Source of the DNA: Anaerolineae bacterium
GTDB taxonomy: Bacteria; Chloroflexota; Anaerolineae; UBA1429
Direction of reading: 5' to 3'
NCBI GenBank assembly: GCA_016928125.1
Contig: JAFGLK010000445.1
Coordinates: forward strand, 1 to 17,555
DNA: 17,555 nt
Below are positions 1 to 17,555 of the stretch, piece after piece. The first letter of the stretch is position 1, and every line of letters begins with the position of its first letter. Both the position numbers and the translations under genes were made by a program. The notes under the pieces are model-generated. The model worked only from the letters and a program-made list of their open reading frames with translations. It was not told where the DNA came from and made no database searches.

Positions 1-1
1 A

Positions 2-142: not shown

Positions 143-172
143 TTGACGACAGGGTGGCACCTGTGACAGAAT
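143..172 (+). promoter_or_regulatory. Weak candidate promoter upstream of the aldolase-type gene
   Basis: TTGACG (143-148) is followed after 18 bp by CAGAAT (167-172), placing the expected start of transcription about 50 nt before the ATG at 229. The -10 matches only 4 of 6 consensus positions. The gene could instead be read through from the upstream enolase-superfamily gene. Confidence 0.3.
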
Positions 173-228
173 GCCTTGGTTACCCGCGCTGAGGCAGCGA
201 AGCTAACCTGGAGACAAAGGAGCTAAAG

Positions 229-1131
229 ATGGCCAACCGAAAGCTGTTCGGCAGTTTCGCGATTCCGATGACGCCCTATGACGAGAAAGACCGCGTGGAT
301 GAGGATGTGCTGGCCGCAGAGATCGACTTTTGCTGCGAGTCGAACGTGGGTGGCATCGTGGTGCCGGTGATGGTGAGCGAGTTCCGCCTCCTGTCGGAGG
401 ACGAGCGGCGCACCCTTATCCGGGTTCCAGTGGAGGCCTCGGCGGGCCGTGTGCCAATCATCGCCAATGTGGCGGCCGTCAACACGCCTCTGGCCGTGAG
501 CTATGCCGAGTATGCCCAGAAGGTCGGGGCCGACGCGGTGATTGCCATGCCATCCTACATCCATCGCCACGATACTGAGACGATCCGCGCCTACTATCAG
601 GCGATCTCCGATGCCGTATCGGTGCCGGTGTGGATCCAGAATGCCAGCGTGGCAGCCCTCTCGGGGGACGAGGTGATCCGCATGTGCACCGAGATCAAGA
701 ACGTGAGCTGGATCAAGGAGGAAGTACCGCCCGAGCCGGAGCGCATCGGCGCCCTGGTCAAGCGCAACTGCCCCGATCTCGCCGGGGTGGCTGGCGGCGC
801 CGGCGCGCGCTATTCCATCACCGAATGGCAGCGTGGCGCGGTGGGCACGGTGCACGCCTGTCAGTTCTGCGACGTGGTGCAAAGGATCTGGGATCTCCTG
901 GATGAGGGCCAGATGGATGAGGCCGGCGACCTCTTTGAGAAGCTGATGCCCGCTCTGATGATCGAGGGGCTGTTCGGCATGTCGTGTGCCAAAGAGATCA
1001 TGATCCGCCGGGGCGTGTTCAAGAACAACCGCGTCCGGACGCGCGCGAATCCGTTGAGCGACGACGACATGAAAGAGATCGATCGCGTCTGGGAGCGCAT
1101 CCAGCCCCATCTGGTGTGGCACAAGAGCTAA
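229..1131 (+). CDS. Dihydrodipicolinate synthase/N-acetylneuraminate lyase-family protein
   Basis: This 300-residue protein has the normal length of a class I aldolase TIM barrel of the DapA/NanA/KDG-aldolase family. The start ATG is fixed by AAAGGAG at 216-222, spaced 6 nt. The opening GSFAIPMTPYDE and the central SWIKEE, with Lys163 as the expected Schiff-base lysine, are family landmarks. Two usual active-site features are changed. The Thr-Thr pair of the GTTGE loop reads Met-Val (VPVMVSEFRLLS, residues 45-56), and the catalytic Tyr of the usual YN motif is Gln137 (WIQNAS). It sits between two enolase-superfamily paralogues, so a lyase acting on a 2-keto-3-deoxy sugar acid made by a neighbouring dehydratase is plausible. 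That substrate is inferred. It is unlikely to be the lysine-biosynthesis DapA. Confidence 0.85.
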   Translation: MANRKLFGSFAIPMTPYDEKDRVDEDVLAAEIDFCCESNVGGIVVPVMVSEFRLLSEDERRTLIRVPVEASAGRVPIIANVAAVNTPLAVSYAEYAQKVGADAVIAMPSYIHRHDTETIRAYYQAISDAVSVPVWIQNASVAALSGDEVIRMCTEIKNVSWIKEEVPPEPERIGALVKRNCPDLAGVAGGAGARYSITEWQRGAVGTVHACQFCDVVQRIWDLLDEGQMDEAGDLFEKLMPALMIEGLFGMSCAKEIMIRRGVFKNNRVRTRANPLSDDDMKEIDRVWERIQPHLVWHKS

Positions 1132-1229
1132 GCCCACCCCGAGGCAACGCATAGGCAGTCGGGCGCATGCCTGTCGGTATGCGCCTGTCCGTGAAACGAA
1201 AAGCCCAGATCAACGACGAAAGGAACATC

Positions 1230-2558: not shown

Positions 2559-2595
2559 ATCTGCCCCACCCAAAGTAGGAGAGAAGAAAAGCAAG

Positions 2596-2624
2596 AGGGG
2601 GGAGATCTTGGTATCCTCCCCCCT
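2596..2624 (-). terminator. Terminator of the Ca2+-ATPase gene, between convergent genes
   Basis: AGGGGGGAG (2596-2604) pairs perfectly with CTCCCCCCT (2616-2624) across an 11-nt loop. Read on the minus strand, the hairpin is followed by the T-rich CTTGCTTTTCTTCTC, so it best terminates the ATPase transcript ending at 2660. It may also stop the enolase-superfamily transcript ending at 2558, although the plus-strand side has no T run. Confidence 0.75.
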
Positions 2625-2659
2625 GCGCTGTTCTGTCGGTGCGGCCCTTTGCGGACGGT

Positions 2660-5476
<2,817 letters not shown>

Positions 5477-5665
5477 TCCACCCTCCTTGTTCCATGATCT
5501 CTTGGTCGTGACGCTGGGGTACCTTTCTCGCCGAGCCTTACCGCGCCGCTGGCCCAAAATCGGCGCATCTCGCCAGTGGCGCTTGAGCCTCGCCCGAGAT
5601 CTTCGGCTTGACCGCCAAGCGGCTGGCGGGCCTTGGCGCAGATTGCCATAACCTCACCGTTGCAG

Positions 5666-5694
5666 AATATAGCAGGCACTGCCCAAGCGCGCAA
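5666..5694 (-). promoter_or_regulatory. Promoter of the Ca2+-ATPase gene
   Basis: On the minus strand TTGCGC (5694-5689) is followed after 17 bp by TATATT (5671-5666), with TGC immediately before the -10 as in extended -10 promoters. Transcription would start near 5658, leaving an untranslated leader of about 180 nt before the ATG at 5476. The same TTGCGC-17 arrangement occurs before the LarA-like gene. The rest of the 312-bp stretch 5477-5788 holds this promoter, a hairpin and the leader; I see no gene in it. Confidence 0.6.
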
Positions 5695-5702
5695 ATATGC
5701 GC

Positions 5703-5726
5703 TCGGAGAGTGTATCGCCTCTCCGA
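5703..5726 (-). terminator. Hairpin downstream of the acetamidase-family gene
   Basis: TCGGAGAG (5703-5710) pairs perfectly with CTCTCCGA (5719-5726) across an 8-nt loop, 62 bp beyond the stop of the acetamidase-family gene and just upstream of the ATPase promoter. It has no T run, so a terminator role is inferred from position and symmetry only. Confidence 0.45.
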
Positions 5727-5788
5727 CGGCAGCAGCTTGGCGCGAGGCGACGACTGCTCGAGACTCTGCCAGAAGCCCTCACGAATGG

Positions 5789-6709
5789 TTAGGCAGGCGC
5801 GATCTTGTCGAGCACCTCCTTGGAGACCTTGCAGACCATGGTGAAGGCTGGGTCAAACACGTTCCCCACCTCGTATTCCACGCATTGCCCGAGCAGAATG
5901 CTGGCGCCATAGGCATCGAGGCCATATTCCTCGCGAAGCCAGCGCATCATCTCCGTGGTGGCGTGCTGCACGCCTCCATCCAGCGGCCTGGCGTTCCCGA
6001 TGGTAAAGATGTGCGTGGCGCTCTCGCCTCGCGGCCAGCCGATGGTCTTGCCTTTGAGTACGTCGACGGTCAGCTCGACATCGAATGAGATCTCGATGCC
6101 CGTGCCGATGATCTCCCCATCGCCCTGCACCGCATGCCCGTCGCCGAAGAAGAGCAATGCGCCCGGTTCAAACACAGGAAAGTAGATCGTCACCCCAGCG
6201 CGCAAGCCGCGGTAGTCCATGTTGCCGCCGTGCTCCGCCGAGGTGGCCGAGGAGATGGCCTGCTTGCGGCTTGGCGCGACCCCCAGACAGCCCAGCATCG
6301 GATCGAGCGCCAACTCGATCTGCCCCAAGGCGGTCTGGGGCTCGATTAGCCTGGCGGTGCCACCCCCAAGATCGAGTTGCCAGCGGGCCAGATCTCCTTC
6401 TTGGGGCAATTCCCGCACGTAAGCGGCCTCCACGACGTGTGGCGCCACCACGGTGCGCGTCCAGCCATACTCGCGATTGGGCCACAGGCGATCAAGGCGA
6501 ACGACCAGGGTATCGCCCGGTTCGGCATCCTCAATGAAAAAGGGACCGGTGAGCGGGTTCCCGCGCGGGGCGACTTTGTTCCCAGCTGCATCCAGGCCGC
6601 GAGCGCAGAGGCTATGGCTCACAAGCGTGTCGCCCGCGGCGATGTGTAGAACCGGCTCGTATGGGCCGAAGGCATTGTAGTAGCGGCTGGGTTGATAGGT
6701 GTGCTTCAT
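5789..6709 (-). CDS. Acetamidase/formamidase family protein
   Basis: This 306-residue protein is of the FmdA/AmdA family, which hydrolyses short-chain amides such as formamide and acetamide to the acid and ammonia in the cytoplasm. The start is ATG 6707-6709 with AGGAGAG upstream; an upstream in-frame ATG at 6775 would add 22 residues with no family resemblance. Family signatures are NPLTGP (51-56) followed by an acidic EDAEPGD stretch, HGGNMD (160-165), and GDGHAVQGDGE (189-199). No signal peptide or membrane segment is seen. The length is typical. It stands alone, divergent from rnpB and upstream of the ATPase, so context adds nothing about the substrate. The family is broad and many members have no tested activity. 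Confidence 0.9.
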   Translation of the reverse strand: MKHTYQPSRYYNAFGPYEPVLHIAAGDTLVSHSLCARGLDAAGNKVAPRGNPLTGPFFIEDAEPGDTLVVRLDRLWPNREYGWTRTVVAPHVVEAAYVRELPQEGDLARWQLDLGGGTARLIEPQTALGQIELALDPMLGCLGVAPSRKQAISSATSAEHGGNMDYRGLRAGVTIYFPVFEPGALLFFGDGHAVQGDGEIIGTGIEISFDVELTVDVLKGKTIGWPRGESATHIFTIGNARPLDGGVQHATTEMMRWLREEYGLDAYGASILLGQCVEYEVGNVFDPAFTMVCKVSKEVLDKIAPA

Positions 6710-6803
6710 CTCAATCCCTCTCCTGGTGATCTGCTCTGGCTCAACACGCTCGCAGGCTATCATAGACGCCATCATCTGGCAAGCAGGTGAGGATCTTCAT
6801 TTT

Positions 6804-6825
6804 ATGTCAACTTGCGATTTGACAT
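6804..6825. repeat. Inverted repeat overlapping the rnpB -35 box
   Basis: ATGTCAA (6804-6810) and TTGACAT (6819-6825) form a perfect 7-8-7 inverted repeat. The right arm contains the rnpB -35 hexamer. The left arm gives a TTGACA on the minus strand, but no matching -10 lies at the proper distance there. A regulator-binding site is possible; chance symmetry of the -35 box is the alternative. Confidence 0.4.
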
Positions 6826-6847
6826 GCTCCTGCGTGTGTGCTATCAT
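6819..6847 (+). promoter_or_regulatory. Promoter of rnpB
   Basis: A consensus TTGACA (6819-6824) is followed after exactly 17 bp by TATCAT (6842-6847), with TGC just before the -10 (extended -10). The predicted start, 6-7 nt after the -10, falls at about 6853-6854, which is where the RNase P RNA P1 helix begins. Confidence 0.85.
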
Positions 6848-6853
6848 CGAGGC

Positions 6854-7287
6854 GAGCGAGTGAGCCAGGCGATCGCGTGACGGGCGCCGATCCGAACAGG
6901 ATCGAGGCCACGTCATGAGGAAAGTCCGAACTCCATAGAGCACGATGCTGGGTAACGCCCAGGCGAGGCGACTCGACGGAAAGCGCCACAGAAAAGATGC
7001 AGCCCGCTTCGGCAGCCCAAGCTGGCGGAGCGGGTCATGGTGAAAAGGTGGTGTAAGAGACCCCCAGCGGCCCAGGTGACTGGGCCGGCTAGGCAAGCCC
7101 CATCGGGAGCAAGACCAAGCATGGGACCGCGCGCCCGCTTTCTGAGTGGACGCGCACGGGCTGCTCGTCCGTTCATCCCGGGTAGGTCGCTCGAGGCGCC
7201 GGGCAACTGGCGCCCCAGATGGATGATCGCCAGCCCCAGGCCCACGGGCCTGGGGTGACAGAATTCGGCTTATCGGCCCACTCGTTC
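6854..7287 (+). ncRNA. rnpB: RNase P RNA, bacterial class A
   Basis: This is the catalytic RNA that matures the 5' ends of tRNAs. The hallmark conserved block GAGGAAAGTCC starts at 6917 and continues into CTCCATAGAGCAC. The 3' block ACAGAATTCGGCTTAT (from 7258) supplies the other half of the universal core helix P4. GGTGAAAAGGTGGTGTAAGAG (7039-7059) and GGCTAGGCAAGCCCC are further conserved features. The ends are set by helix P1: CGAGTGAGCC (6857-6866) pairs with GGCCCACTCG (7275-7284) with one mismatch, extending to 6854/7287 through three more pairs. A long GC helix near 7233-7256 precedes the 3' core. The length of about 434 nt is within the range of class A molecules. The 5' end matches the start predicted from the promoter. 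Confidence 0.95.
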
Positions 7288-7292
7288 TCCTC

Positions 7293-7350
7293 GAGGCGGC
7301 TGTACGTGAACCTTTGGCCCTCTGGGCCGGGCTTCATGTTCAGCCGCCTC
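7293..7350 (+). terminator. Compound stem-loop directly downstream of rnpB
   Basis: Three nested pairings lie within 58 nt: GAGGCGGC (7293-7300) with GCCGCCTC (7343-7350), TGAAC (7307-7311) with GTTCA (7338-7342), and GGCCC (7316-7320) with GGGCC (7324-7328). There is a 6-nt bulge on the 5' side. It begins 6 nt after the RNase P RNA 3' end, so a terminator or 3'-processing signal is likely. There is no T run after it. Confidence 0.55.
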
Positions 7351-7378
7351 TGGTTCATGCCTTCGCATCGACGTGTGC

Positions 7379-7402
7379 TTGGCCGGTGCGAAAGCCGGCC
7401 AA
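7379..7402. other. Perfect hairpin between rnpB and the LarA-like gene
   Basis: TTGGCCGG (7379-7386) pairs with CCGGCCAA (7395-7402) across an 8-nt loop, 10 bp upstream of the -35 box of the next gene. It could be a second stop for rnpB transcription or an operator. No T run is present. Confidence 0.4.
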
Positions 7403-7412
7403 CGACCACCGC

Positions 7413-7441
7413 TTGCGCAGGGCGTGTGCCCCAGGTATGAT
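7413..7441 (+). promoter_or_regulatory. Promoter of the LarA-like/GH20 operon
   Basis: TTGCGC (7413-7418) is followed after 17 bp by TATGAT (7436-7441). Transcription would start near 7448, giving a leader of about 29 nt that carries the GGAGAGAAGG ribosome-binding site of the gene at 7477. Confidence 0.55.
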
Positions 7442-7476
7442 TCGCCCGATCCACAACAAGTCACTGGAGAGAAGGC

Positions 7477-8745
7477 ATGCGTGTAGGGCTAGCCTATGGC
7501 GAAGGGACGCGATCGATTGAGGTGCCTGACGACGCGACCGTGCTGTTGCCTCGACAGGTGGCAGGGATTCTAGATGAGCGTGGGGCCATCGTAGATGCCC
7601 TGAGATGCCCGCCGGAGCAGCGGTCGCTCCGCGAGAGGGTGAGCCCCCACGACCGTGTTGCCGTGGTCTTTAGCGATATCACCCGTCCGATGCCCAACGC
7701 GCGGGTGCTGCCGGCGCTGCTGGATGAGTTGGCACACATCCCGCCCGAGCAAATCGTGCTGATCAACGGCCTGGGCACCCATCGCGCTCAGACTGAGGAG
7801 GAACTGGCCCGCATGTTGGGCCGCGATCTCGTGGCACGCTACGCCATCGAGCAGCACGACGCCTGGAACGCCGATCGGCTTGTCGATCTGGGAGAAACGC
7901 GCTACGGCCATCGCGCCCTGGTGAATCGGACCTATGTCGAGGCGACCTTCAGGATCGTGACCGGCTTCATCGAGCCGCACATCTTTGCCGGGTTCAGCGG
8001 GGGCCCCAAGGCTGTTTTGCCGGGCATTGCGGGCATCGGGTCGATCATGGACAACCATGGCTATGCCATGCTGAGTGCGCCCACGGCCACATGGGGCATC
8101 ACCGAGGGGAACCCCGTGTGGGAGGAGATCAGCCAGGTAGGGCAGCTCGCGCGCCCCGACCTGATGCTCAATGTGACCCTCAACCGGCGTCGCGAGATCA
8201 CGGGCGTTTTTGCCGGTGAGATGATGGCGACGCACCGCCAAGGCATCGAGTTCGTGCGCAGTTCGGCCATGGTGCCGGTCGAAGCGCCCTTTGACATCGT
8301 CGTCACCAGCAACAGCGGCTATCCGTTGGACATCAATCTCTATCAGGCCGTCAAAGGGATGTCGTGCGCAGCCCAGATCGTCAAGCCCGGTGGGAGCATC
8401 CTGATCGCCAGCGAGTGCCGAGATGGCGTGCCGGACTATGGCGAGTACCGCAATCTCATGCACGAAGGCGGTTCACCAGCAGGTGTGCTCGACCTGATTA
8501 GCCAGCCGGGCTTTCGCCGCCATGATCAGTGGGAGGCGCAGCTTCATGCGCAGATCCTGCAACTGGCCGACATCCATGTCTACAGCGACTATCTCTCTGA
8601 TGAGGAGACGCGGGGCATGCTGTGCGAGCCGTGCCACGATCTTGACGCCACCCTGGCCAGCCTCCTGGGAAGACACGGGGCGGGCGCTCGGGTATGCGTT
8701 TTGCCGGAAGGCCCTCAGACGATTCCCTTCGTGGCCACGCGCTGA
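7477..8745 (+). CDS. LarA-like (DUF2088) protein, lactate racemase family
   Basis: This 422-residue cytoplasmic protein has the length of the lactate racemase LarA, which uses a covalently bound nickel-pincer nucleotide to move hydride on 2-hydroxy acids. The start ATG follows GGAGAGAAGG. Residues corresponding to the LarA active site are present: Asp67 and Arg70 (SDITRP), His102 (GLGTHR), His168 (IEPHIFAGF), the cofactor-linking Lys178 (GGPKAV) and His194 (DNHG). The spacing from His102 to His194 is the same as in LarA. None of the cofactor-synthesis genes larB, larC or larE lies in the window. It precedes a GH20 glycosidase by 82 bp, which suggests a sugar-derived hydroxy acid rather than lactate as substrate. 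That is inference; DUF2088 members of unknown specificity are common. Confidence 0.85.
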   Translation: MRVGLAYGEGTRSIEVPDDATVLLPRQVAGILDERGAIVDALRCPPEQRSLRERVSPHDRVAVVFSDITRPMPNARVLPALLDELAHIPPEQIVLINGLGTHRAQTEEELARMLGRDLVARYAIEQHDAWNADRLVDLGETRYGHRALVNRTYVEATFRIVTGFIEPHIFAGFSGGPKAVLPGIAGIGSIMDNHGYAMLSAPTATWGITEGNPVWEEISQVGQLARPDLMLNVTLNRRREITGVFAGEMMATHRQGIEFVRSSAMVPVEAPFDIVVTSNSGYPLDINLYQAVKGMSCAAQIVKPGGSILIASECRDGVPDYGEYRNLMHEGGSPAGVLDLISQPGFRRHDQWEAQLHAQILQLADIHVYSDYLSDEETRGMLCEPCHDLDATLASLLGRHGAGARVCVLPEGPQTIPFVATR

Positions 8746-8827
8746 ACAACATGCGGGGCCAGATCCCCTTGCCTTGCTCGACATAGGCGTTCGGTTCTGC
8801 CGAGTACGGAATGAAAGGAGTAGTTGG

Positions 8828-10915
8828 ATGGCAGCCAAGCGTTCCCCGTGTGTGATCCCAGAGCCCAAGCAGGTCGAGTGGCGGGCGGCGCAGTTCACGC
8901 TGGCCGCGGATACCTGGCTGGTCCTGTTGCCGGACGCGCCGGAGGCGGACCTCGTGGCGGCCCGCGCCCTGCAGCGAGAGATCCAGGAGGCGAGCGGGCT
9001 CGATCTGCCGATCGTCAAGACCGCGCAGCCCGCGCGTTCGGACAACATTATCCTGCTGGTCTCGGACCAAGAAGCTGCCGAAGGCTATCTCGCCGGCGCT
9101 GGCTTCTCTACGAGCGACCTGGCCTGGGATCGTGCGTTGGCCGCCCATGGGGAGCAGGCCTACCTGATCGATGTCTCGCCGCGACGCGTGATCGCCGGCG
9201 GACGGGGCTCTCTCGCGCTTTACTATGCCGTTCAGACGCTACGTCAGATGGTGCGCGTCGAAGGCCCTCGTTGGCCAGCCATGAGGCTGCGCGACTGGCC
9301 GGCGTTGCCCTATCGGGGCTTGATGCTGGACGTCTCGCGGGGCAAAGTGCCGACCTTGGAGACCCTCAAGCATCTGGTAGACGAGCTCAGTCTCTACAAG
9401 CTCAATGTACTGCAGCTGTACACAGAGCACACCTTTCTGTTTCCCCATCATCCGCGCATCGGCGAGGGCTGCGACCCACTCAGCGGCGACGATATGCTGA
9501 CCCTGGATCACTATGCACGCGAGCGCCACGTGGAATTGGTGCCCAATCTGCAGTCTTTCGGACACTGCGCCCACATCCTGTCTATGCCCGAGTATCGCCA
9601 TCTGGCCGAGCTGCCGGCAGCGGGTTGGTCACTGTGTCCACAGGATGAAGCCACGTACCGCTTCCTCGAGGAGCTGTATGGCGATCTGTTGCCCAACTTT
9701 TCCTCGGATACCCTGAATATCAACTGCGATGAGACTTACGATCTGGGCGCCGGACGTTCCGCTCAGGCCGTCGCCGAGAGGGGCGTCGGACGCGTGTATC
9801 TGGAACACATCCTGCGGCTGCGCGAGCTCGCCCGCGCCCATGGACGACGCATTCAGCTCTGGGGGGATATCCTGCTACACCATCCGGAATTGGTGCCAGA
9901 GCTCCCCGATGACGTAATCCTGCTCGACTGGCACTATGGCGCGGCCGATGACTATCCCTCGGTGCGCACCTTTGCAGAGAGCGGCCGCGCTTTCTGGGTC
10001 TGTCCCGGCACCTCGTCGTGGAATACCCTTTTCCCACGCATCGAGAACGCCAACGTGAACATCCGTACCTTGGCCCGCCTGGGGACCGAGCATGGCGCCC
10101 AAGGCTTGCTGAACACCGACTGGGGCGACTATGGCCACTATCAGCCGCTGGGACAGTGTTGGTATGGCTATCTCTATGGTGCCGAACAAGCCTGGACCGG
10201 CGGGGTGACGGAGGATGAGCGCTTTGACGCGCGCTTTGGGCCGCTCTTCTTTGGCGCCCGCGGCGACGAGGTGGTCCAGGCCATGCGCACCATCGGGCGC
10301 CTGAACATCCTGGAGGGCATGCCACGACCGAATGCCGCGAACAGCATCTATGCGCTGCTGGATGAGCCCCTGGTGGGAACGATGATCGCCGAGCTGCCTG
10401 AGGCGACCTGTGTCGAGATCGTGCGCGTGGGTGCAGAGGCCCAGGCCGCGCTGCGGCGGACGCTGCCTGTAGTTCGTGATCGGCTGTCAGTGGAAGAGAT
10501 GATCTACTCGGTGCGCATGATGGCCTATGCGGCGCGCAAGGTGCTGGCCTCCCAGGGAATCCGCCGCGATCTGGCGCGCTTGGCTCAAGGCGGTGGCTCA
10601 GGAGCGGATATGCTCCGTCAGGCTATGGAGACGCTGCGTTCGCTGGATGCAGAGCGAGTGCATCTCACCGAGCTGTTCGAGGAGCTCTGGCTGCGTCGCG
10701 CGCGCCGCTCCGAGATCGACATCACCCTGAGCCACCTGGCCCGCTTGGGAGAGCGATTCGCAGCCGCCGTCGCCTGGTTGGGGGAACGGCTGGCTGAGGT
10801 GGAAGCCGGGGAGACGCCCGACTATACCCTCGATGCCTATCAGCAGGCCGCTGCGGACTATGAAGTCCTGGGGCAATCGTTCCGGCGTCGGATGCAGGAG
10901 GCCGGCGTCTTCTAG
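8828..10915 (+). CDS. Glycoside hydrolase family 20 (beta-N-acetylhexosaminidase-like)
   Basis: This protein has 695 residues. The start is ATG 8828 with GAAAGGAG at 8813-8820; the open frame runs further upstream but overlaps the preceding gene in another frame. An N-terminal GH20b-type alpha/beta domain (about 8-150) leads into the barrel, which opens with YRGLMLDVSRGK (about 162-173). The catalytic pair is Asp301-Glu302 (NINCDETYDLG), corresponding to the Asp-Glu of GH20 substrate-assisted catalysis. FGH (244-246), WGDI (345-348) and TDWGDYGHY (430-438) are further family features. About 230 C-terminal residues look helical. No signal peptide is seen, so it probably acts on imported oligosaccharides in the cytoplasm. 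It follows the LarA-like gene by 82 bp in one likely operon and ends at a strong hairpin. Exact glycan unknown. Confidence 0.88.
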   Translation: MAAKRSPCVIPEPKQVEWRAAQFTLAADTWLVLLPDAPEADLVAARALQREIQEASGLDLPIVKTAQPARSDNIILLVSDQEAAEGYLAGAGFSTSDLAWDRALAAHGEQAYLIDVSPRRVIAGGRGSLALYYAVQTLRQMVRVEGPRWPAMRLRDWPALPYRGLMLDVSRGKVPTLETLKHLVDELSLYKLNVLQLYTEHTFLFPHHPRIGEGCDPLSGDDMLTLDHYARERHVELVPNLQSFGHCAHILSMPEYRHLAELPAAGWSLCPQDEATYRFLEELYGDLLPNFSSDTLNINCDETYDLGAGRSAQAVAERGVGRVYLEHILRLRELARAHGRRIQLWGDILLHHPELVPELPDDVILLDWHYGAADDYPSVRTFAESGRAFWVCPGTSSWNTLFPRIENANVNIRTLARLGTEHGAQGLLNTDWGDYGHYQPLGQCWYGYLYGAEQAWTGGVTEDERFDARFGPLFFGARGDEVVQAMRTIGRLNILEGMPRPNAANSIYALLDEPLVGTMIAELPEATCVEIVRVGAEAQAALRRTLPVVRDRLSVEEMIYSVRMMAYAARKVLASQGIRRDLARLAQGGGSGADMLRQAMETLRSLDAERVHLTELFEELWLRRARRSEIDITLSHLARLGERFAAAVAWLGERLAEVEAGETPDYTLDAYQQAAADYEVLGQSFRRRMQEAGVF

Positions 10916-10925
10916 GGCCTGAGAC

Positions 10926-10957
10926 GACGCTCTTGGGGCGCATGCCCCAAGAGCGTC
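10926..10957. terminator. Bidirectional terminator hairpin between convergent genes
   Basis: GACGCTCTTGGGG (10926-10938) pairs perfectly over 13 bp with CCCCAAGAGCGTC (10945-10957). The 6-nt loop CGCATG can close to a GCAT tetraloop. It lies 10 bp after the GH20 stop and 13 bp from the DUF4342 stop on the other strand. There is no T run on either side. Confidence 0.75.
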
Positions 10958-10970
10958 AGCCTGGCGTGGT

Positions 10971-11225
10971 CTACTCCTCGACGATCCGCTCCACCACGAT
11001 GGAGCAGTTGGTCGCCAGGGCAGCGAACGCACCAATGGCGGCCAGCACCGGCGCCAGCACAGCGCCCACGGCCGCGACCGTCAAGGGGAGCTCCATGACC
11101 GTCCGATTGTCTTGTTTGATGACGATGCGCCGGATGTTGCCCTCATGGAACAGCTCTTTGACCTTTTCGACCAGCTGTGACCCGGCGACCTTGAATTCTT
11201 CTTGTCTGACCTTCTGCTCTGACAT
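10971..11225 (-). CDS. DUF4342 domain-containing protein
   Basis: This small protein of 84 residues has the typical DUF4342 layout. A charged helical N-terminus (EEFKVAGSQLVEKVKELFHE, residues 9-28) is followed by a short strand-like stretch ending RRIVIKQ, then one hydrophobic segment (about 46-71, LPLTVAAVGAVLAPVLAAIG) and the tail NCSIVVERIVEE. The hydrophobic segment suggests membrane association. The start ATG is supported by AAGGAAGG a few bases upstream on the minus strand. The function of the family is unknown. It is monocistronic, with the hairpin at 10926-10957 at its end. I found no convincing promoter in the 265 bp between it and the divergent signal peptidase gene. Confidence 0.85.
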   Translation of the reverse strand: MSEQKVRQEEFKVAGSQLVEKVKELFHEGNIRRIVIKQDNRTVMELPLTVAAVGAVLAPVLAAIGAFAALATNCSIVVERIVEE

Positions 11226-11428
11226 GTTGTACCTTCCTTGTGAATATGTGCCTATCAGCTACTTGCATCGTCAGCGATGAGTTCGTGGCTCATAGACAAC
11301 TCCCCAATATGGTCCGCCTCTCTGCTGAGAAGGCTAATCCCATGATGTCTACACACAATACGCGCTGTCCTCATTCCAAGTTGCGCCATATCGCTCGGCT
11401 GGTGGCCCATTGTTGCTGCAGGGCACGC

Positions 11429-11456
11429 TTGCCAGCCGGTGTATTCTGGTTAGAAT
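11429..11456 (+). promoter_or_regulatory. Promoter of the signal peptidase gene
   Basis: TTGCCA (11429-11434) is followed after 16 bp by TAGAAT (11451-11456). Transcription would start near 11463, which rules out translation starts upstream of that point, although the open frame reaches 11410. Confidence 0.55.
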
Positions 11457-11490
11457 GGATCCATCTTCGCGCATGAGGCAAGATACCGAT

Positions 11491-12081
11491 ATGATGGATG
11501 AGCATCCTGTAGACTCCCGGATCAGCGATAGCTCCCGTGTGATGAACGCCACCTCGTCTGACCTTCCACAGCTCGCTTGCTGGCTGCGAGAGCTGGGGGC
11601 CACGGTGGTCCCTGCCATCGTGATTGTCTTGAGCATCAATCTCTTGCTGGCCCAGCCTCGCGTGGTGCATGGACAGAGCATGGAGCCCAGCCTGCACGAG
11701 AGCCAGCGCGTCATTGTGGATCTCCTCGCCTATCGGTTGCGCACGCCGCGCTATGGTGAGATCGTCGTGCTCGATGTGCCTGAGCGAGAGTCAGGGCCGC
11801 CTTTGATCAAGCGCGTCATTGGCCTTCCCGGCGACGTGGTGGAGATCAAAGGGGGCTCCGTCTATGTGAACGGCCACAAGCTAGTGGAACCCTACCTCGA
11901 CCAGATCACCACGGGGGCACTGGGCTCCACGCTGGTTCCTGAGGAGCACGTCTTTGTGCTGGGCGACAACCGCCGCAGCAGCAATGACTCGCGCTATTTT
12001 GGCACGGTGCCCTTTGAGAGCATCCTTGGGCGTGCCTGGATGACCTATTGGCCCCCTGCCGAGGTTGGCTTCTTTGAGTAG
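11491..12081 (+). CDS. lepB: Signal peptidase I
   Basis: This membrane-anchored serine protease (S26 family) removes signal peptides from exported proteins at the outer face of the cytoplasmic membrane. The product is about 196 residues from ATG 11491, chosen because it lies downstream of the predicted transcription start with GAGG about 11 nt upstream. ATG 11473 and 11494 are also possible. One membrane helix (about 36-54) precedes the catalytic Ser63 in HGQSMEPSL. The general base Lys107 sits in LIKRVIGLPGD, and the C-terminal box GDNRRSSNDSR is complete. The length fits Gram-positive-type enzymes with a single anchor. The epimerase gene follows after 51 bp, probably in the same transcript, although their functions are not obviously linked. 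Confidence 0.92.
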   Translation: MMDEHPVDSRISDSSRVMNATSSDLPQLACWLRELGATVVPAIVIVLSINLLLAQPRVVHGQSMEPSLHESQRVIVDLLAYRLRTPRYGEIVVLDVPERESGPPLIKRVIGLPGDVVEIKGGSVYVNGHKLVEPYLDQITTGALGSTLVPEEHVFVLGDNRRSSNDSRYFGTVPFESILGRAWMTYWPPAEVGFFE

Positions 12082-12132
12082 TCTGCTCCCGCATCTGGTC
12101 GAGCGCTCTGGCTGATAGGGAGGGGCGTGTCG

Positions 12133-13110
12133 ATGCGAGCTCTCATCACGGGTGGCTGTGGTTTCATCGGCAGCCATCTGGCCGAGGCACTTTTGGCGCG
12201 AGGCGATGAGGTCACCGTCGTCGATGATCTCTCGACCGGCTGTTTTGACAATATCGCCCATCTCGTGAGTCGGCCAGGCTTTCGCTTTGCCATCGAGACG
12301 ATCCTCAACGAAACGGTGATGGATCGCCTGGTCAGCGAATGCGAGATCATCTATCATCTAGCGGCAGCCGTGGGGGTGGAACTGATCGTCCGAGACCCGG
12401 TGCGCGTCATTGAGACCAACATCAAAGGGTGCGAGACGATCATGCGCATCGGGGCCAGATATCGCAAGAAGGTCATGCTGGCCTCCACCTCCGAGATCTA
12501 TGGCAAGAGCGACAAGGTGCCTTTTGCCGAAGATGACGATGGCGTGCTGGGGCCTACCACGCACAGCCGCTGGAGCTATGCCTGCTCCAAGGCGATGGAC
12601 GAGTTCCTGGCCCTGGCGTACGCCAAGCAGATGGCGCTACCCGTGGTGATCATGCGCTTTTTCAACACCGTAGGGTCACGCCAGACGGGACGCTATGGCA
12701 TGGTGGTGCCTCGCTTTGTCGAGCAGGCGCTGCAGGGCCGGCCGCTCACGGTTTATGGCGATGGTCAGCAGACGCGCTGCTTCACCTATGTGGGCGATGT
12801 GATCAGAGCCATCCTCAGCCTGAGCGACGAACCGGCGGCTGCGGGCCAGGTCTTTAACATCGGCAGCACTCAGGAGGTGACCATCGAGGCGCTGGCCAGG
12901 CGTATCATCGCCTTGGCCAACAGCGCCTCCGACTTGATCTTTATCCCGTACGATCAGGCCTATGAGGCTGGCTTTCAGGATATGCGTCGCCGGGTGCCAA
13001 GTATCTCCAAGATTCATCGGCTGACCGGTTGGCAGCCTGAGATCGACCTGGATGGCATCCTGAAGCGTGTGATCGCCTATGCGCGGGGCCAAAACGCATC
13101 TCCATGCTGA
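12133..13110 (+). CDS. NAD-dependent nucleotide-sugar epimerase/dehydratase (extended SDR)
   Basis: This protein has 325 residues. ATG 12133 is preferred over GTG 12127 because AGGGAGGGG (12117-12125) is then 7 nt away. The Rossmann motif TGGCGFIGSH (6-15) with an acidic VVDDLSTG (30-37) after strand 2 indicates NAD+ binding. The catalytic motif is Tyr149-x-x-x-Lys153 in RWSYACSK, with Ser/Thr in STSEIYG just before. The C-terminal FFNTVGSRQTGRYG and VYGDGQQTRCFTYVGD resemble UDP-glucuronate decarboxylase, ArnA C-domain and UDP-glucose 4-epimerase relatives. Members remodel UDP- or dTDP-sugars for surface polysaccharides in the cytoplasm. No glycosyltransferase lies nearby to narrow the substrate. 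Likely cotranscribed with the signal peptidase gene. Confidence 0.88.
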   Translation: MRALITGGCGFIGSHLAEALLARGDEVTVVDDLSTGCFDNIAHLVSRPGFRFAIETILNETVMDRLVSECEIIYHLAAAVGVELIVRDPVRVIETNIKGCETIMRIGARYRKKVMLASTSEIYGKSDKVPFAEDDDGVLGPTTHSRWSYACSKAMDEFLALAYAKQMALPVVIMRFFNTVGSRQTGRYGMVVPRFVEQALQGRPLTVYGDGQQTRCFTYVGDVIRAILSLSDEPAAAGQVFNIGSTQEVTIEALARRIIALANSASDLIFIPYDQAYEAGFQDMRRRVPSISKIHRLTGWQPEIDLDGILKRVIAYARGQNASPC

Positions 13111-13252
13111 TCATTCCTGCCCCGAGAGGGGCATACTGGCGCTTGGGTGGTCCACTCCACACGAGGGAGAGACAGAACATCACGTTAGGGGACAAAGAGG
13201 AAGCACTTCCGGGGCATTCCGGAGCCTTGTCAGGGCAAGAAAGGAGTACGCG

Positions 13253-13936
13253 ATGAAGTACGAGGTTCATGGTGAGACCTTGCCATCCATCGATGTGTGG
13301 CTCGATGCGGGCGAGGCCGTGTTCACCGAGAGCGGCGGCATGGCCTGGATGAAAGGCGACGTCTCCATGGAGACGGGCACCCGCGGGGGGCTGTTGGCCG
13401 GGCTGGGGCGCAAACTGGCCGGCGAGTCGCTCTTTATGACGACCTACAAATGCCAGAGCGGAACAGGCCTGGTGACCTTCACGCCTGAGGCGCCCGGTCG
13501 GATTCTGGTGTTCGAGTTGCAGGCGGGGCAAAGCCTGATCTGCCAGAAGGATGCCTTCATGGCGGCTGAGGAGGGGGTCGGCCTGGAGATGCACTTCCGC
13601 AAGCGCCTGGGCGCCGGCCTCTTTGGCGGCGAGGGCTTTATCTTGCAGCGCGTTTCGGGCCCAGGGGTGGCGTTTCTCGAGATCGCCGGCGATGTGCGCG
13701 AGTACTCCCTGGGTGAAGGCGAGGTCATGAAAGTCGATCCAGGGCACATTGCGCTATACGAGCCCAGCATCGACTATGATATCGAGGCGGTGCGCGGTCT
13801 GACCAATGTGCTCTTTGCCGGGGAGGGCCTGTTCCTGGCCACTCTGCGTGGGCCTGGCAAAGTCTGGCTGCAGAGCATGCCGATCAGCAATCTGGCAGCC
13901 AAGATCCGCCAGTACATCCCCAGCAAGAGCAGTTGA
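13253..13936 (+). CDS. AIM24/TIGR00266 family protein
   Basis: This protein has 227 residues, with start ATG 13253 set by AAAGGAG at 13240-13246. The open frame extends upstream into the epimerase gene without family-like sequence. AIM24 landmarks are visible: ESGGMAWMKGDVSMET near residues 25-40, GESLFMTTYK (about 58-67), LFGGEGFILQRVSGPG (about 124-139), and a C-terminal GEGLFLATLRGPGKVWLQS (about 190-208). The family forms a trimeric beta-sandwich of TRAP-like fold and its bacterial role is not established. No membrane segment or signal peptide is seen. It lies 142 bp after the epimerase gene. That gap holds a small GCCCC-GAGA-GGGGC hairpin (13119-13132) and no clear promoter. It ends at the terminator at 13944. 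Confidence 0.88.
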   Translation: MKYEVHGETLPSIDVWLDAGEAVFTESGGMAWMKGDVSMETGTRGGLLAGLGRKLAGESLFMTTYKCQSGTGLVTFTPEAPGRILVFELQAGQSLICQKDAFMAAEEGVGLEMHFRKRLGAGLFGGEGFILQRVSGPGVAFLEIAGDVREYSLGEGEVMKVDPGHIALYEPSIDYDIEAVRGLTNVLFAGEGLFLATLRGPGKVWLQSMPISNLAAKIRQYIPSKSS

Positions 13937-13943
13937 GAGAGGA

Positions 13944-13979
13944 GCCTGAGCGTTCCCGGCATGGCCGGGACGCTCAGGC
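13944..13979. terminator. Bidirectional terminator hairpin between convergent genes
   Basis: GCCTGAGCGT (13944-13953) pairs with ACGCTCAGGC (13970-13979), and inside it CCCGGC pairs with GCCGGG. This gives 16 bp with a single bulged T at 13954 and an ATG loop. It is 7 bp after the AIM24 stop and 8 bp from the DUF554 stop on the opposite strand. There is no T run on either side. Confidence 0.75.
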
Positions 13980-13987
13980 GGCAGCCG

Positions 13988-14698
13988 CTAGAACGAGATC
14001 TCGAACGCCTCCAGCAGCGCCACGATCGCCGGCGCGATGGCCAGGGCGGGCAGAAGGTTGGCGACACGAATGCGCTTGAGGTCCAGGAGCAACAACCCAA
14101 TCGCGAGGATCAGCACGCCCCCGGTGGCCGTCATCTCGGCGATCATCGCGTCAGTCAGGATCGTCTGTACCAGCCCAGCAGCCAGGGTCAGTCCCCCCTG
14201 GTAGAGCAGAATCGTCAGAATGGAGAACAGCACCCCTACGCCCAGAGATGACGCAAAAGCCAGGGCCGCAAAAGCATCGAGCATCGATTTGATCGCCAGC
14301 AGCGTGAAATCTCCGCTGAGGCCGTCCTGAATCGATCCCAGGATGGTCATTGGACCGATGCAGAAGACGAGACTCGACGTGATGAAACCCTCCGTAAAGT
14401 GGGTCAGGCTATGGCTTGACAGGCGCTTGCCCACCCGCGATTTGAGCCATTCGCTCGCCCGGTCCAGCCCCACATCGATGCGCCACCACTCTCCGAGCAG
14501 GCCTCCGACCAATACGCTGCCCATGACGATCAGGATGTTCTCGGTCTCCATCGAGAGGTGGATGCCCACGATGACGGTGACCAGCCCCAAGCCATGCAAA
14601 ACCGTCTCGCGAACACGTTCCGCGAGACGGTTGCCGAGGATGGCCCCGATGCTGCCCCCGATCAGGACCGTTGCGACATTGAGCCATGTGCCGATCAA
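13988..14698 (-). CDS. DUF554 family membrane protein (YdfK-like)
   Basis: This 236-residue integral membrane protein has about six or seven hydrophobic segments. Family landmarks are the N-terminal IGTWLNVATVLIGGSIG, a central GFITSSLVFCIGPMTILGSI followed by QDGLSGDFTLL, and a glycine-rich SSLGVGVLFS helix. The start is TTG at 14696-14698, which places the protein end where the family normally begins. The only purine-rich stretch upstream (GGAAGGG) is farther than usual, so initiation may depend on coupling to the upstream ferritin-like gene 51 bp away. The family function is unestablished; a transporter or channel role has been suggested by its topology. It is the last gene of the run beginning with the glutaredoxin-PDZ gene. 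Confidence 0.88.
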   Translation of the reverse strand: MIGTWLNVATVLIGGSIGAILGNRLAERVRETVLHGLGLVTVIVGIHLSMETENILIVMGSVLVGGLLGEWWRIDVGLDRASEWLKSRVGKRLSSHSLTHFTEGFITSSLVFCIGPMTILGSIQDGLSGDFTLLAIKSMLDAFAALAFASSLGVGVLFSILTILLYQGGLTLAAGLVQTILTDAMIAEMTATGGVLILAIGLLLLDLKRIRVANLLPALAIAPAIVALLEAFEISF

Positions 14699-14749
14699 AG
14701 CTGCCCGAGTCCCTTCCAGGCTGTGGGATGCTCCAGAGCGAACATGAGC

Positions 14750-15274
14750 CTAGCCCTCGAAGAAGGGCAATTCGCGCTCGTCAAAGTACCAGACGCCGTC
14801 GTTGACCAGGTAGTCATAGGTCTCTTGCAGGAAGACATAGTGCTTGTTCTCAGCCGCCGCCAGCCATTCCCAGAGGGTCTTCTCCGCCTCTGAGCTCGCA
14901 TCGGCAGCCGCCTCCTCATACATCTTGAAGCCGCGCTCCTCAAAGTCCATGGCCAGCTTGAGAGCCTGCTCGTCGGTAGCATCGGCCGGAATCAGCTGTT
15001 CGGCCTGATCTGCGCCAGGGAATATGTGAGTGGGATCCACCGAGTCGGCCAGTTGGACCGCCTCGGCCACAGTGACCCATACCTCGCTCCCCGACACAGC
15101 GGCGTACTCGCCGCGCAGGATGTCCAAATGCTTGCTCTCCTCAGCCACCAGGCTCTGAAAGACCTGCTTGCCTTTCTCTGCCTGTGTGCGGGCCACGGCC
15201 TGCTCATAGAAACGCTTGCCCCAAATCTCGGTGCTCATGCCTGTTTTGATTACATCAAGTGCGCTTGTCATCAT
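14750..15274 (-). CDS. Ferritin-like/rubrerythrin-type diiron protein (first copy)
   Basis: This 174-residue protein folds as a predicted four-helix bundle. Iron-ligand motifs are spaced as in rubrerythrins: Glu16 (TEIWGKRFYE), Glu46-x-x-His49 (EESKH), Glu112/113 (DFEERGFKMYEEAA) and Glu142-x-x-His145 (AENKH). There is no C-terminal rubredoxin domain with Cys-x-x-Cys pairs, so this is a rubredoxin-less form. Such proteins reduce peroxide or store iron in the cytoplasm, but the activity here is untested. Two consecutive ATGs begin the gene; AAAGGTG upstream suits the second (15271) slightly better. It lies 40 bp after the second ferritin-like gene, with identical placement of both ExxH pairs, so the two arose by duplication. 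Confidence 0.85.
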   Translation of the reverse strand: MMTSALDVIKTGMSTEIWGKRFYEQAVARTQAEKGKQVFQSLVAEESKHLDILRGEYAAVSGSEVWVTVAEAVQLADSVDPTHIFPGADQAEQLIPADATDEQALKLAMDFEERGFKMYEEAAADASSEAEKTLWEWLAAAENKHYVFLQETYDYLVNDGVWYFDERELPFFEG

Positions 15275-15314
15275 TCACCTTTCTCTATGACTCTAGAATA
15301 GACCAACGACCTCT

Positions 15315-15806
15315 CTAAACCCAGCCGCCACGCTCGGAGAGCGCCTCATAGTTGCTCATCAGCAGGTTAAAGTGGGTCGTCTCGGCGCCCACCAGCCACA
15401 GATACATCTGCTTGCCGGCTGGGTCCTCTGTCTGCCGAGCGGCCTGGGCGTATAGATCCCGGCTCTGGATCTCGCGCTCGAGTGCCATGTGCAGCGCGTC
15501 CATGACGCTTGGGTCGATGCCCAACTTGGCCTCGACGCTCTCTCGATCGGGCGGAAAGAGCTTTTGCTCTGCATCGATCCCTTGCACGTCCAGATCGGGC
15601 AGCAGCACATAGCGGCCATCGCCTTCAAGCGCGTGAAGCTGGCGGGTCACCATGTCGGCATGCTTGACCTCGTCATCAGCCAGCGACAGGAACATGGCAC
15701 GGCCTTTTTCGTCTAGCGTCAGCTCGGCTGCCTTCAGGTAGAACTGCTCTCCCTCGCGCTCCAGCTTGAGCGCCTGGCTCAGTATCTCCAATTCCTTGTT
15801 GGCCAT
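15315..15806 (-). CDS. Ferritin-like/rubrerythrin-type diiron protein (second copy)
   Basis: This protein has 163 residues from ATG 15804-15806, preferred over an ATG six codons upstream because GAGGAG then lies at a workable distance. The four-helix-bundle ligands are Glu17 (KLEREGEQFY), Glu46-x-x-His49 (DEVKH), Glu110/112 (ALEREIQSRDLY) and Glu142-x-x-His145 (AETTH). It has no rubredoxin domain and no cysteines that would bind extra iron. The middle linker (about 60-100) is proline and charge rich. It lies 53 bp downstream of the glutaredoxin-PDZ gene and 40 bp upstream of its paralogue on the same strand, so a shared transcript is likely. A role in peroxide or iron handling is inferred from the family and the glutaredoxin neighbour. 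Confidence 0.86.
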   Translation of the reverse strand: MANKELEILSQALKLEREGEQFYLKAAELTLDEKGRAMFLSLADDEVKHADMVTRQLHALEGDGRYVLLPDLDVQGIDAEQKLFPPDRESVEAKLGIDPSVMDALHMALEREIQSRDLYAQAARQTEDPAGKQMYLWLVGAETTHFNLLMSNYEALSERGGWV

Positions 15807-15859
15807 CTCTTGTCTGCTCCTCATGCTGTTGGCATAGCGGGCTCCCTATGCGCTGGGCC

Positions 15860-16372
15860 CTAGAACTCCAGTACCGCGTCATGGCGCCGCCCGTTGCGCA
15901 CAAAAGCCAGTGGCACGCGCTGACCGGGCCTGACCGCCGCAACGAACTGCTCGAGATGCAGGGCGCTCTGCACCTCTCGCCCTGCCAGAGCGACGATCAC
16001 GTCTCCGGGCTGCAGGCCAGCTCGCTGGGCGACGCCGCCAGAGGTCACTCTGCCGATGTATGCGCCCCGCTGCTCGCTGGAACGTCCTTTGCGGGCCATC
16101 TCGGCCGCATCGGCCACCGCAGCGCCCAAGCGCGGGCGCTGCGTCTCGCGCAGCAGCGCATCCAGGCGCGGCTGATCATACCCCACCACAATCTGCCCAT
16201 CGATCGCCGTCACCGGCACGCCCTGCTGCCCCGAGAGGCGCACCATCTCGGCCGCCGCCGCCGGATCACGCGACACATCCACATCCCGAAACGGAACGGA
16301 ACGACGTGAAAGAAACTCTTTCACCTGACGACAATAGGGTCACGTGGGTGTCGAATAGACCGTGACGTTCAA
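15860..16372 (-). CDS. Putative selenocysteine glutaredoxin fused to a PDZ domain (in-frame UGA at codon 11)
   Basis: Read from TTG 16370-16372, the product is 170 residues. It opens MNVTVYSTPT, then UGA (16340-16342) at residue 11, then PYCRQVKEFL. The glutaredoxin CPYC site therefore reads U-P-Y-C. The frame after the UGA is open to TAG at 15860. The glutaredoxin fold continues with cis-proline in GVPV (Pro53) and IVVGYDQPRLDALL. A PDZ domain follows (about 104-168: YIGRVTSGGVAQRAGL, then QPGDVIVALAGREV). GGAG lies 7 nt before the TTG, and the family normally begins at this point. A SECIS-like hairpin follows the UGA. A dithiol/selenol reductase acting on PDZ-bound partners is inferred. Alternatives are a sequencing error or a recent nonsense mutation. 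Gene callers would start at GTG 16324, after the active site. Seleno-forms of small glutaredoxin-like proteins are known; the PDZ fusion I do not recognise. Confidence 0.75.
16306..16324 (-). promoter_or_regulatory. Candidate bacterial SECIS hairpin
   Basis: On the minus strand GTGAAAG (16324-16318) pairs perfectly with CTTTCAC (16312-16306) around the loop AGTTT (16317-16313). The loop starts 22 nt after the UGA codon, and G is its second base followed by U. This agrees with the general bacterial SECIS pattern of a short stem-loop about 16-37 nt after the UGA with a G in the first two loop positions. It lies inside the coding frame, as bacterial SECIS elements do. Confidence 0.65.
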
Positions 16373-16434
16373 TGCACCACTCCGCTTCCTCAACAGATCA
16401 CAAAAATCGATCCAAAAAAGACTAGACGACTCTT

Positions 16435-16462
16435 ATTCTACCCTCTTCGCTTCGGCGGTCAA
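16435..16462 (-). promoter_or_regulatory. Promoter of the glutaredoxin-ferritin-DUF554 run
   Basis: On the minus strand TTGACC (16462-16457) is followed after 16 bp by TAGAAT (16440-16435). Transcription would start near 16428, leaving a leader of about 55 nt before the TTG start codon at 16372. It lies in the 171-bp gap after korB, and I see no clear terminator for korB there. Confidence 0.55.
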
Positions 16463-16543
16463 ATCCCTGGCCCTCAGACTAACTCAAGGCGCCGGGGCCT
16501 GCACGCTGGCCGAGGATGCCTTGCACATGCCGAGTCGTCCGCG

Positions 16544-17419
16544 TCAGATGAACTCCTGCAGGAGCAACTCATAGTCCTCGGCTGGGCGCGTGCGCAGTGG
16601 CTGCGCTACGAGAGAGCCAGCTTGCAGAGCGGGCAATTGCTCCTCATAGGATGGCTTGGTCTCGTCCCGGTAGATGATGCCCGTGGGGATACGCTCTCCC
16701 CCCGGATACTCGAGCGCTCTGGCCATGGCGGCCATGCGATCACCGGGGTCATGGCCCTCATCCTCGACCTTGTACACGCGTTCCCGGTACCAGGCATAGC
16801 TCATCGGCCGGTTAAAGCTGACGCAAGGCTGCATCACGTCGATCAGCGCATAGCCGCGGTGGTTTAGGGCCTCCACCAGCAAGGCGGCGAGGCCCTGCAG
16901 ATCCAGCGCAAAGCCCCGGGCCACAAAGGTGGCGCCCTGTGAGATCGCCAGCGCCAGCGGGCTCACTGGGCTGTCGATGGCCCCCTCCGGCGAGGTCGAG
17001 GTCCTGAAGCCGGGCCGGCTCGTGGGCGAGTACTGGCCCTTGGTGAGGCCGTAGACATGGTTGTTCTCGATCATATCCACGATGCCGATGTTGCGACGGG
17101 TGGCATGCAGGAAATGGTTGCCCCCTTCGCCATAGCCATCCCCATCGCCGTGAACGCAGAGCACCTTGAGATCGGGATTGGCCAATTTGAACCCGGTCGC
17201 CACCGCGACCGTGCGTCCGTGCAGCGTGTGCAGGCCATTGACGTGCATATAGTCGCTGATCTTGCTGCCGCAGCCAATGCCCGAGACGATGATGACTTGA
17301 TGGGGCTCCAGGCCCGCCTGGACGAGGCCGCGTTTGACCGCGTTCCAGATGCCATAATCGCCGCAGCCCTGACACCAGGTGGGTCGGATATCGTTGCTAT
17401 AGTCCTCGACCGTTGCCAT
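16544..17419 (-). CDS. korB: 2-oxoacid:ferredoxin oxidoreductase, beta subunit
   Basis: This 291-residue subunit of the 2-oxoglutarate/2-oxoacid:ferredoxin oxidoreductase decarboxylates 2-oxoacids to acyl-CoA with reduction of ferredoxin in the cytoplasm. The thiamine-diphosphate motif runs GDGDGYGEGGNHFLHATRRN (91-110) to IENNHVYGLTKGQ (117-129). Cys16 and Cys19 (TWCQGCGD), Cys50 (GIGCGSK) and Cys199 (QPCVSFN) are the expected [4Fe-4S] ligands of this subunit. The start ATG is one base after the korA stop (TAACATG), so translation is probably coupled. The length is normal for this two-subunit class. Presence of the enzyme suggests a ferredoxin-based, low-potential metabolism, anaerobic or microaerobic. 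Pyruvate cannot be excluded as substrate. Confidence 0.92.
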   Translation of the reverse strand: MATVEDYSNDIRPTWCQGCGDYGIWNAVKRGLVQAGLEPHQVIIVSGIGCGSKISDYMHVNGLHTLHGRTVAVATGFKLANPDLKVLCVHGDGDGYGEGGNHFLHATRRNIGIVDMIENNHVYGLTKGQYSPTSRPGFRTSTSPEGAIDSPVSPLALAISQGATFVARGFALDLQGLAALLVEALNHRGYALIDVMQPCVSFNRPMSYAWYRERVYKVEDEGHDPGDRMAAMARALEYPGGERIPTGIIYRDETKPSYEEQLPALQAGSLVAQPLRTRPAEDYELLLQEFI

Positions 17420-17420
17420 G

Positions 17421-17555
17421 TTACTTGCCCCCCAACTGGTGAAATGCGTCTAGGATGTACTGCGCTGTAAACCCCCGCCCGTCGTACTTCAGGATGCGAT
17501 GATCCACCTCGATGCCCGTCTGCGCCTGGAGCAACGCAGCGAACTGAGCGCTGCC
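17421..17555 (-). CDS. korA: 2-oxoacid:ferredoxin oxidoreductase, alpha subunit, C-terminal end
   Basis: Only the last 44 codons and stop TAA (17421-17423) are in the window; the gene continues beyond 17555. The visible end contains GIEVDHRILKYDGRGFTAQY followed by ILDAFHQLGGK, which resembles the tail of fused gamma-alpha KorA subunits. The one-base gap to the downstream beta-subunit gene is the usual korAB arrangement. The subunit binds the 2-oxoacid and CoA, but none of those residues are visible here. The assignment rests on the tail sequence together with its adjacency to korB. Confidence 0.85.
   Translation of the reverse strand, partial: GSAQFAALLQAQTGIEVDHRILKYDGRGFTAQYILDAFHQLGGK

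Follow-up and report, generated by a model that had tools for sequence, protein, structure and literature searches.

A frame on the minus strand of contig JAFGLK010000445.1 from an Anaerolineae bacterium (assembly GCA_016928125.1; positions 1 to 17,555, the whole stretch that was analysed, are called the window below) carries a glutaredoxin (Grx) fused to a PDZ domain, with a UGA codon at the place of the first active-site cysteine. The question raised by this locus is whether the codon is read as selenocysteine (Sec), ends the protein or marks a damaged gene, and, if it is read, what the attached PDZ domain may be there for.

From TTG 16372 the minus strand translates as LNVTVYSTPT, UGA, PYCRQVKEFLS and onwards to the next stop, TAG at 15862-15860, and the product has 170 amino acids if the UGA is counted as one residue. 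As was noted in the preliminary description, the UGA (TGA at 16342-16340) is in frame and falls exactly on the first Cys of a CPYC motif, the frame from TTG 16372 to 15860 is open apart from it and contains Grx and PDZ domains, and a GGAG sequence (16383-16380) is located 7 nt 5' of the TTG. The start was likewise found at the usual place of the family, since most UGA-containing relatives have a start codon, usually ATG, at the same residue, the exceptions being L081 and L083, which begin a few codons further upstream. The promoter that had been claimed upstream is weaker than stated and rests on a single match to the consensus at 16462-16435, with agreement at 10 of 12 positions; no other occurred in the scanned 3.7 kb, for which shuffled sequences gave an expectation of 0.7. 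The GTG at 16324 of the window gene is the start predicted by gene callers, with loss of the active site; gene finders truncate the Sec-Grx-PDZ gene at its UGA codon.

Table 1. Positions of the features discussed in the text, numbered along the window
Feature	Position	Strand	Remarks
grx-PDZ gene (predicted selenoprotein)	15860..16372	-	TTG start, 170 residues, predicted Sec at residue 11, TAG stop
UGA codon, probably read as Sec	16340..16342	-	UPYC motif, nucleophilic Cys position
GGAG ribosome-binding-type site	16380..16383	-	7 nt before TTG start
bSECIS-type hairpin	16306..16324	-	GUGAAAG-AGUUU-CUUUCAC; apical G then U; UGA-to-apical-loop 22 nt
korB-like gene, 2-oxoacid:ferredoxin oxidoreductase beta subunit	16544..17419	-	C-terminus EFI, candidate PDZ ligand
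Rubrerythrin/ferritin-like protein A (RubA)	15315..15824	-	conserved neighbour, C-terminus GGWV
Rubrerythrin/ferritin-like protein B (RubB)	14750..15274	-	conserved neighbour
DUF554 protein	13988..14698	-	conserved neighbour

The Grx domain was recognised by Pfam PF00462 at residues 3-62 (E 3e-19; 69.4 bits against a cut-off of 22.9) and the PDZ domain by PF13180/PF17820 at residues 91-166 (42.3 bits with PF13180, cut-off 27). Both folds are present in the AlphaFold2 model (mean pLDDT 92.9, pTM 0.65), residues 1-77 forming the Grx domain and residues 84-169 the PDZ domain. The 50 Foldseek matches listed are headed by HtrA-type proteins and consist mostly of HtrA-type proteases or PDZ domains; none of them matches the whole model, the TM-score on the query being at most 0.51. 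Each of the 60 sequences listed among 107 matches to solved structures covers either the Grx or the PDZ part.

Codon 11 and the adjoining hairpin in related genes

A protein search gave 366 homologues. Among the 120 of them listed, residue 11 is Cys in 81, while in 34 the sequence starts only at residues 15-17, immediately beyond the site, and in five later still. A pattern scan of a species-genome collection gave 35 loci, 34 of which cover codon 11 (L035 does not), the codon being TGA in 10 and TGC or TGT in 24. In a further search, of 396 genomes of one class, that of G005 (the genome of L005), 37 of the matches listed scored 129 bits or more, 21 with exactly one internal TGA and 16 without a stop; TAA or TAG inside the gene was found in none of the 37. 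The listed matches below 129 bits, mostly Grx only, contain TAA and TAG as well as TGA and were left out of this count.

Altogether 24 distinct Grx-PDZ genes have UGA at codon 11, that of the window and 23 from Chloroflexota genomes, loci L048-L073 being mostly second copies of genes already in the set, each of which was counted once. Neither UAA nor UAG was found at this codon in the genes read, Cys14 is kept in all 24 UGA genes, and, apart from one paralogue with Asp, residue 11 is Cys in the remaining relatives that were read. The Cys/Sec exchange that had been expected among the homologues was therefore found, with TGA in 24 genes and TGC or TGT in the Cys-type relatives, and the UGA lies in frame at a catalytic Cys that homologues retain. 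The recurrence of TGA at the same codon in 24 distinct genes makes its placement more than chance. The Asp paralogue (L084:3120), a second Grx-PDZ gene of G019 with a DPTC motif in which Asp stands for the first Cys, was dropped from both the Sec and the Cys counts; G019 also has a Cys-type copy, L019. In plasmid records only distant relatives were found (163 records, every one below 60% identity).

In the UGA genes a stem of 7 bp with a 5-nt loop starts 15 nt 3' of the UGA. The consensus of the 24 genes is GYGAAAG-NGUNN-CUUUCNC, with AAG in place of AAA in three, and standard pairs occupy 98.2% of the 168 stem cells; in the same columns of 21 Cys genes 53.7% of the cells are paired and the hairpin is largely absent, the remote L030-L034 having been omitted from the comparison. 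In the loop, xGUxx, the G and the U are invariant (24/24). According to the bSECIS model given in a 2026 review (PMC13188914), the first or second nucleotide of the loop is a G, with G or U often coming next, and 16-37 nt separate the UGA from the loop; the hairpin of the UGA genes agrees with the loop rule and has a spacing of 22 nt.

One stem pair varies on both sides (UA 11, CG 8, UG 2 and unpaired 3 in the 24 UGA genes), another varies on one side, and five of the seven never vary. The double-change cells and the covariation score exceeded those of all 500 shuffles, whereas double changes affected no more pairs than they did in the shuffles. A slide by +2 columns gave a covariation score of 0.125 against 0.143 in register, yet just 59.5% of its cells were paired. 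As judged from the alignment, the covariation rests on a single pair, itself broken in three of the 24 genes. A 61-nt piece of the window, folded alone, was no better than shuffled sequences (z -0.49), and the comparison of genes was used for this reason. An Rfam scan of the window gave no SECIS family and ARAGORN no tRNA. The only Rfam match over gathering score was an unrelated bacterial RNase P RNA class A (6857-7288, plus strand, 282.8 bits).

All 24 UGA genes have CTT for Leu21, and elsewhere in the same genes CTT accounts for 28 of 280 Leu codons (Fisher p 2e-21, which is not a strict probability because the sequences are related); in the 11 window coding sequences counted it accounts for 19 of 367. 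A covariance model of the hairpin region matched one place in the window (E up to 5), namely the gene itself, which is part of the model by construction. Among the Cys genes the highest score with this model, 53 bits, was obtained for L009 (5983-6042), which retains much of the hairpin; the sequence suggests a likely relic of a recent change from Sec to Cys.

When every pair among the 24 UGA genes was pooled, the ratio pN/pS was 0.35 for residues 2-10 (the nine codons from start to UGA), 0.43 for residues 24-60 and 1.00 for the ten codons 5' of the start (L001, in which this region is not covered, was excluded). Purifying selection acts on both sides of the UGA, residues 2-10 included. Decay of the other UGA homologues, which had been named as an observation that would speak against Sec, was looked for and is not seen. 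In the codons of the hairpin the proportion of synonymous differences falls to 0.34, from 0.70-0.95 around them.

The same constraint can be followed in a close trio. The UGA genes L077 and L078 differ at none of 21 hairpin nucleotides and at 64 of 438 from residue 24 to the end, whereas a comparison of L077 with the Cys gene L020 gives 7/21 in the hairpin and 26/438 beyond it (Fisher p 3e-4). The contrast is weaker for L078 and L020, with 7/21 and 73/438, respectively (p 0.07). The trio offers a natural experiment on the decay of a SECIS after replacement of Sec by Cys. A tree was built from 24 Sec and 19 Cys rows, with residue 11 masked and the remote L028-L034 omitted; on it the Sec/Cys label needs seven changes, at least two of them forced by well-supported branches.

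Decoding machinery and other readings of the UGA codon

Among the 23 UGA genomes of the relatives, SelB over its curated cut-off was found in 18 and tRNA-Sec above 60 bits in 19; one or the other is present in 21 and both in 16, many of the assemblies being fragmented, and in G021 and G024 neither of the two was found at these thresholds. The threshold of 60 bits is exceeded also in 13 of the 21 Cys genomes; Rfam's own cut-off was rejected as too loose, since 5 of 14 control genomes pass it and many further matches lie at 47-54 bits. SelB occurs in 17/21 Cys-type genomes and in 102/120 genomes of the class of G005, a count by which nearly every member of that class seems to have the Sec trait. 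SelB (18/23 versus 17/21) was therefore rejected as a means of distinguishing UGA from Cys genomes: the machinery that Sec requires is there in most of the relatives, and it does not tell the two kinds of genome apart.

If the UGA were a true stop, the working protein would start at GTG 16324 and have no active site. The 34 listed database proteins that begin just after the site, and the presence of the GTG in the window gene, would fit such a product. However, the codon at this position is GCG, no start codon, in 8 of the 24 UGA genes, residues 2-10 are under purifying selection, and the shortened protein would lose its first strand and the UxxC motif, so that the stop reading is very improbable. 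It seems rather that many database copies have been shortened to a point immediately behind the Sec codon. The UGA could also be a nonsense change of a Cys codon, real in a pseudogene or artefactual through an error of sequencing or assembly; one base suffices to turn TGC or TGT into TGA, and the window is an assembled contig. This possibility, more improbable still, is in the main refuted by the conservation of TGA, never TAA or TAG, at the same codon in the window and 23 genomes, and by the constrained hairpin, and the frame is under selection on either side of the codon. A reassignment of UGA in the lineage, for example to Cys or Trp, would account for its alignment with Cys, but is in effect refuted and has a negligible probability, because UGA is an ordinary terminal stop in 6 of the 23 UGA genes with a known end and in 5 of the 11 coding sequences counted in the window, and because SelB and tRNA-Sec are present in most relatives.

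The Sec at residue 11 that had been proposed from the window is supported by the Cys/Sec exchange, the SECIS-type hairpin, purifying selection and the Sec machinery in most of the relatives' genomes, and comparison of these sequences indicates that the UGA is almost certainly decoded as Sec. Decoding would be performed by SelB with Sec-tRNA, directed by the bSECIS hairpin inside the coding sequence; the way SelB recognises SECIS elements varies among species. The best explanation of the locus as a whole, which we consider very likely, is that of a selenoprotein composed of a UPYC Grx and a C-terminal HtrA-type PDZ domain, decoded by means of SelB and a bSECIS, with a presumed redox role and docking through the PDZ domain.

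Neighbouring genes and possible partners of the PDZ domain

The genes follow one another in the order korB, grx-PDZ, two rubrerythrin-like genes and DUF554, and the gene preceding korB is truncated at the end of the window. The grx-PDZ gene had been taken for the head of an operon; it is not the head of the cluster, because korB immediately precedes it in the same orientation, an arrangement shared by many relatives. Similar neighbours recur in relatives of both Sec and Cys type. A korB match was found in 9/16 Sec and 9/17 Cys loci tested, contig ends limiting these counts; it is located downstream of the gene in L019 and about 1 kb upstream in L010 and L017, and none was found in the available locus DNA of L007, L021, L022, L079, L081 and L083.

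On the basis of known Grx chemistry, the selenol would attack a disulfide, a mixed disulfide with a small thiol, or an oxidised thiol, and Cys14 would resolve the selenenyl-sulfide. The PDZ domain may hold the Sec active site on a partner by binding the C-terminus of the latter. Two neighbours have C-termini of interest in this respect, KorB as the likeliest candidate because of its E-x-hydrophobic end, and RubA as the second.

The C-terminus of KorB in Grx-PDZ loci is hydrophobic in 18/19 cases and of the form E-x-hydrophobic in 14/19; the latter is a class III PDZ ligand. As a control, 20 genomes lacking a full-length Grx-PDZ hit were chosen, of which 16 yielded 23 KorB-like matches, and here the end is hydrophobic in 8/23 (four of these being Ala) and E-x-hydrophobic in 1/23; all but one of the controls are remote (below 50% identity), and the comparison is therefore confounded by ancestry. 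Nine of the ten RubA orthologues of at least 44% identity, that of the window included, end in W-V or W-A (L012 ends in W-Q), and remoter ones have other ends. The GGWV end of RubA presumably resembles a ligand for HtrA-type PDZ domains. Both C-termini are leads only, suggested by the terminal motif.

It is rather probable that the protein is a selenoprotein as described above and that its PDZ domain serves self-assembly, targeting to a membrane or protease, or binding of RubA, and not of KorB. The HtrA/DegP type of the domain and the ends of nine of the ten closer RubA orthologues speak for such a role, as do the six loci named above in whose available DNA korB is missing; against it, the C-terminal chemistry of KorB is alike in more of the loci. 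Docking of the PDZ domain on KorB, as suggested by its terminal residues, is possible and on balance doubtful. The Grx-PDZ module would provide thiol repair or an electron relay around the 2-oxoacid:ferredoxin oxidoreductase and the peroxide defence of an anaerobe. In the most specific and unlikely form of this reading, a Sec-Grx docked by its PDZ domain on the C-terminus of KorB would be a dedicated selenium-dependent subunit for thiol repair or redox switching, coupled to a peroxide defence of the rubrerythrin type. If true, this would mean that a metabolic enzyme receives a selenium redox centre in trans; a PDZ link with an enzyme of central carbon metabolism, as suggested here, is directly testable.

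Relation to known glutaredoxins and selenoproteins

The 2026 review puts the selenoprotein families or subfamilies of prokaryotes at 119, among them Grx UxxC, distant Grx-like/UXX-star and Trx7/PDZ (CxxU) proteins (PMC13188914). Grx-PDZ is absent from its selenoprotein table, its main text contains no word beginning with Chloroflex or Anaerolin, and no Grx-PDZ appears in the passages on the topic of a 2022 review (PMC9312934). Among the open-licence papers listed, as far as titles and the openings of abstracts go, none is about a Sec-Grx-PDZ protein, from which absence from print does not follow. The earlier suggestion that such a protein is undescribed holds with respect to the table of the 2026 inventory; Sec-glutaredoxins themselves are known. 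The UGA Grx-PDZ relatives would represent a subfamily found in none of the catalogues consulted, whose members very probably use Sec. They add a Sec-Grx-PDZ architecture, with a SECIS of its own, in a class in which SelB is near-universal.

The closest known proteins share only parts of this architecture. The Sec glutaredoxin UxxC (PF00462; Kim et al. 2011, as cited in PMC13188914) has the same Grx fold with Sec for the first Cys, whereas the window protein adds a C-terminal PDZ domain and is encoded in a korB/rubrerythrin cluster. The UXX-star proteins (NF041212, NF041114 and NF041211) are likewise Grx-like (seleno)proteins, and NF041212 matches the Grx part with 63.3 bits; the window protein stays below the three cut-offs (66, 72 and 100, that of NF041212 being 66). 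Family 1 of UXX-star is described as UxxT (PMC13188914), whereas the window protein keeps Cys14, and the short UXX-star models have no PDZ domain. The best NCBIfam match of the Grx domain is the YruB-family glutaredoxin-like model (TIGR02196), with 86.9 bits, just below its cut-off of 88.55; the model spans the Grx domain only. The Trx7/PDZ selenoprotein (NF041199) also combines a thioredoxin fold with a PDZ domain, but has a CxxU motif and another thioredoxin-like domain (PMC13188914), and the window protein matches this model at the PDZ end only, with 31.8 bits against a cut-off of 300. Among the matches listed, PDZ1 of HtrA/DegP/DegQ is the closest PDZ domain by sequence and fold; these proteins have a protease domain, which the window protein lacks.

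Other Grx genes with UGA were also encountered. Short single-domain genes with UGA at the active-site Cys are present in L096:727 (+), L098:917 (-), L099:879 (-) and L017:12021 (+); their motif is Y[ST]Q[PK]G-U-[ML]FC, and their hairpin resembles the one in the Grx-PDZ genes, reaching 48-66 bits under model R1. None of them attains the cut-off of a UXX-star or YruB model. In two of these loci a second UGA Grx-like gene (U-ADC) lies less than 300 bases from the first (L096:1000 (+) and L098:641 (-)). UGA Grx-like domains followed by other domains were found in L094:806 (+), L100 and L095:965 (-). In L094 the domain after Grx matches the start of acetate-CoA ligase alpha, its CoA-binding part, with a score under the cut-off, L100 being similar by sequence, and in L095 the Grx-like domain has a further C-terminal part.
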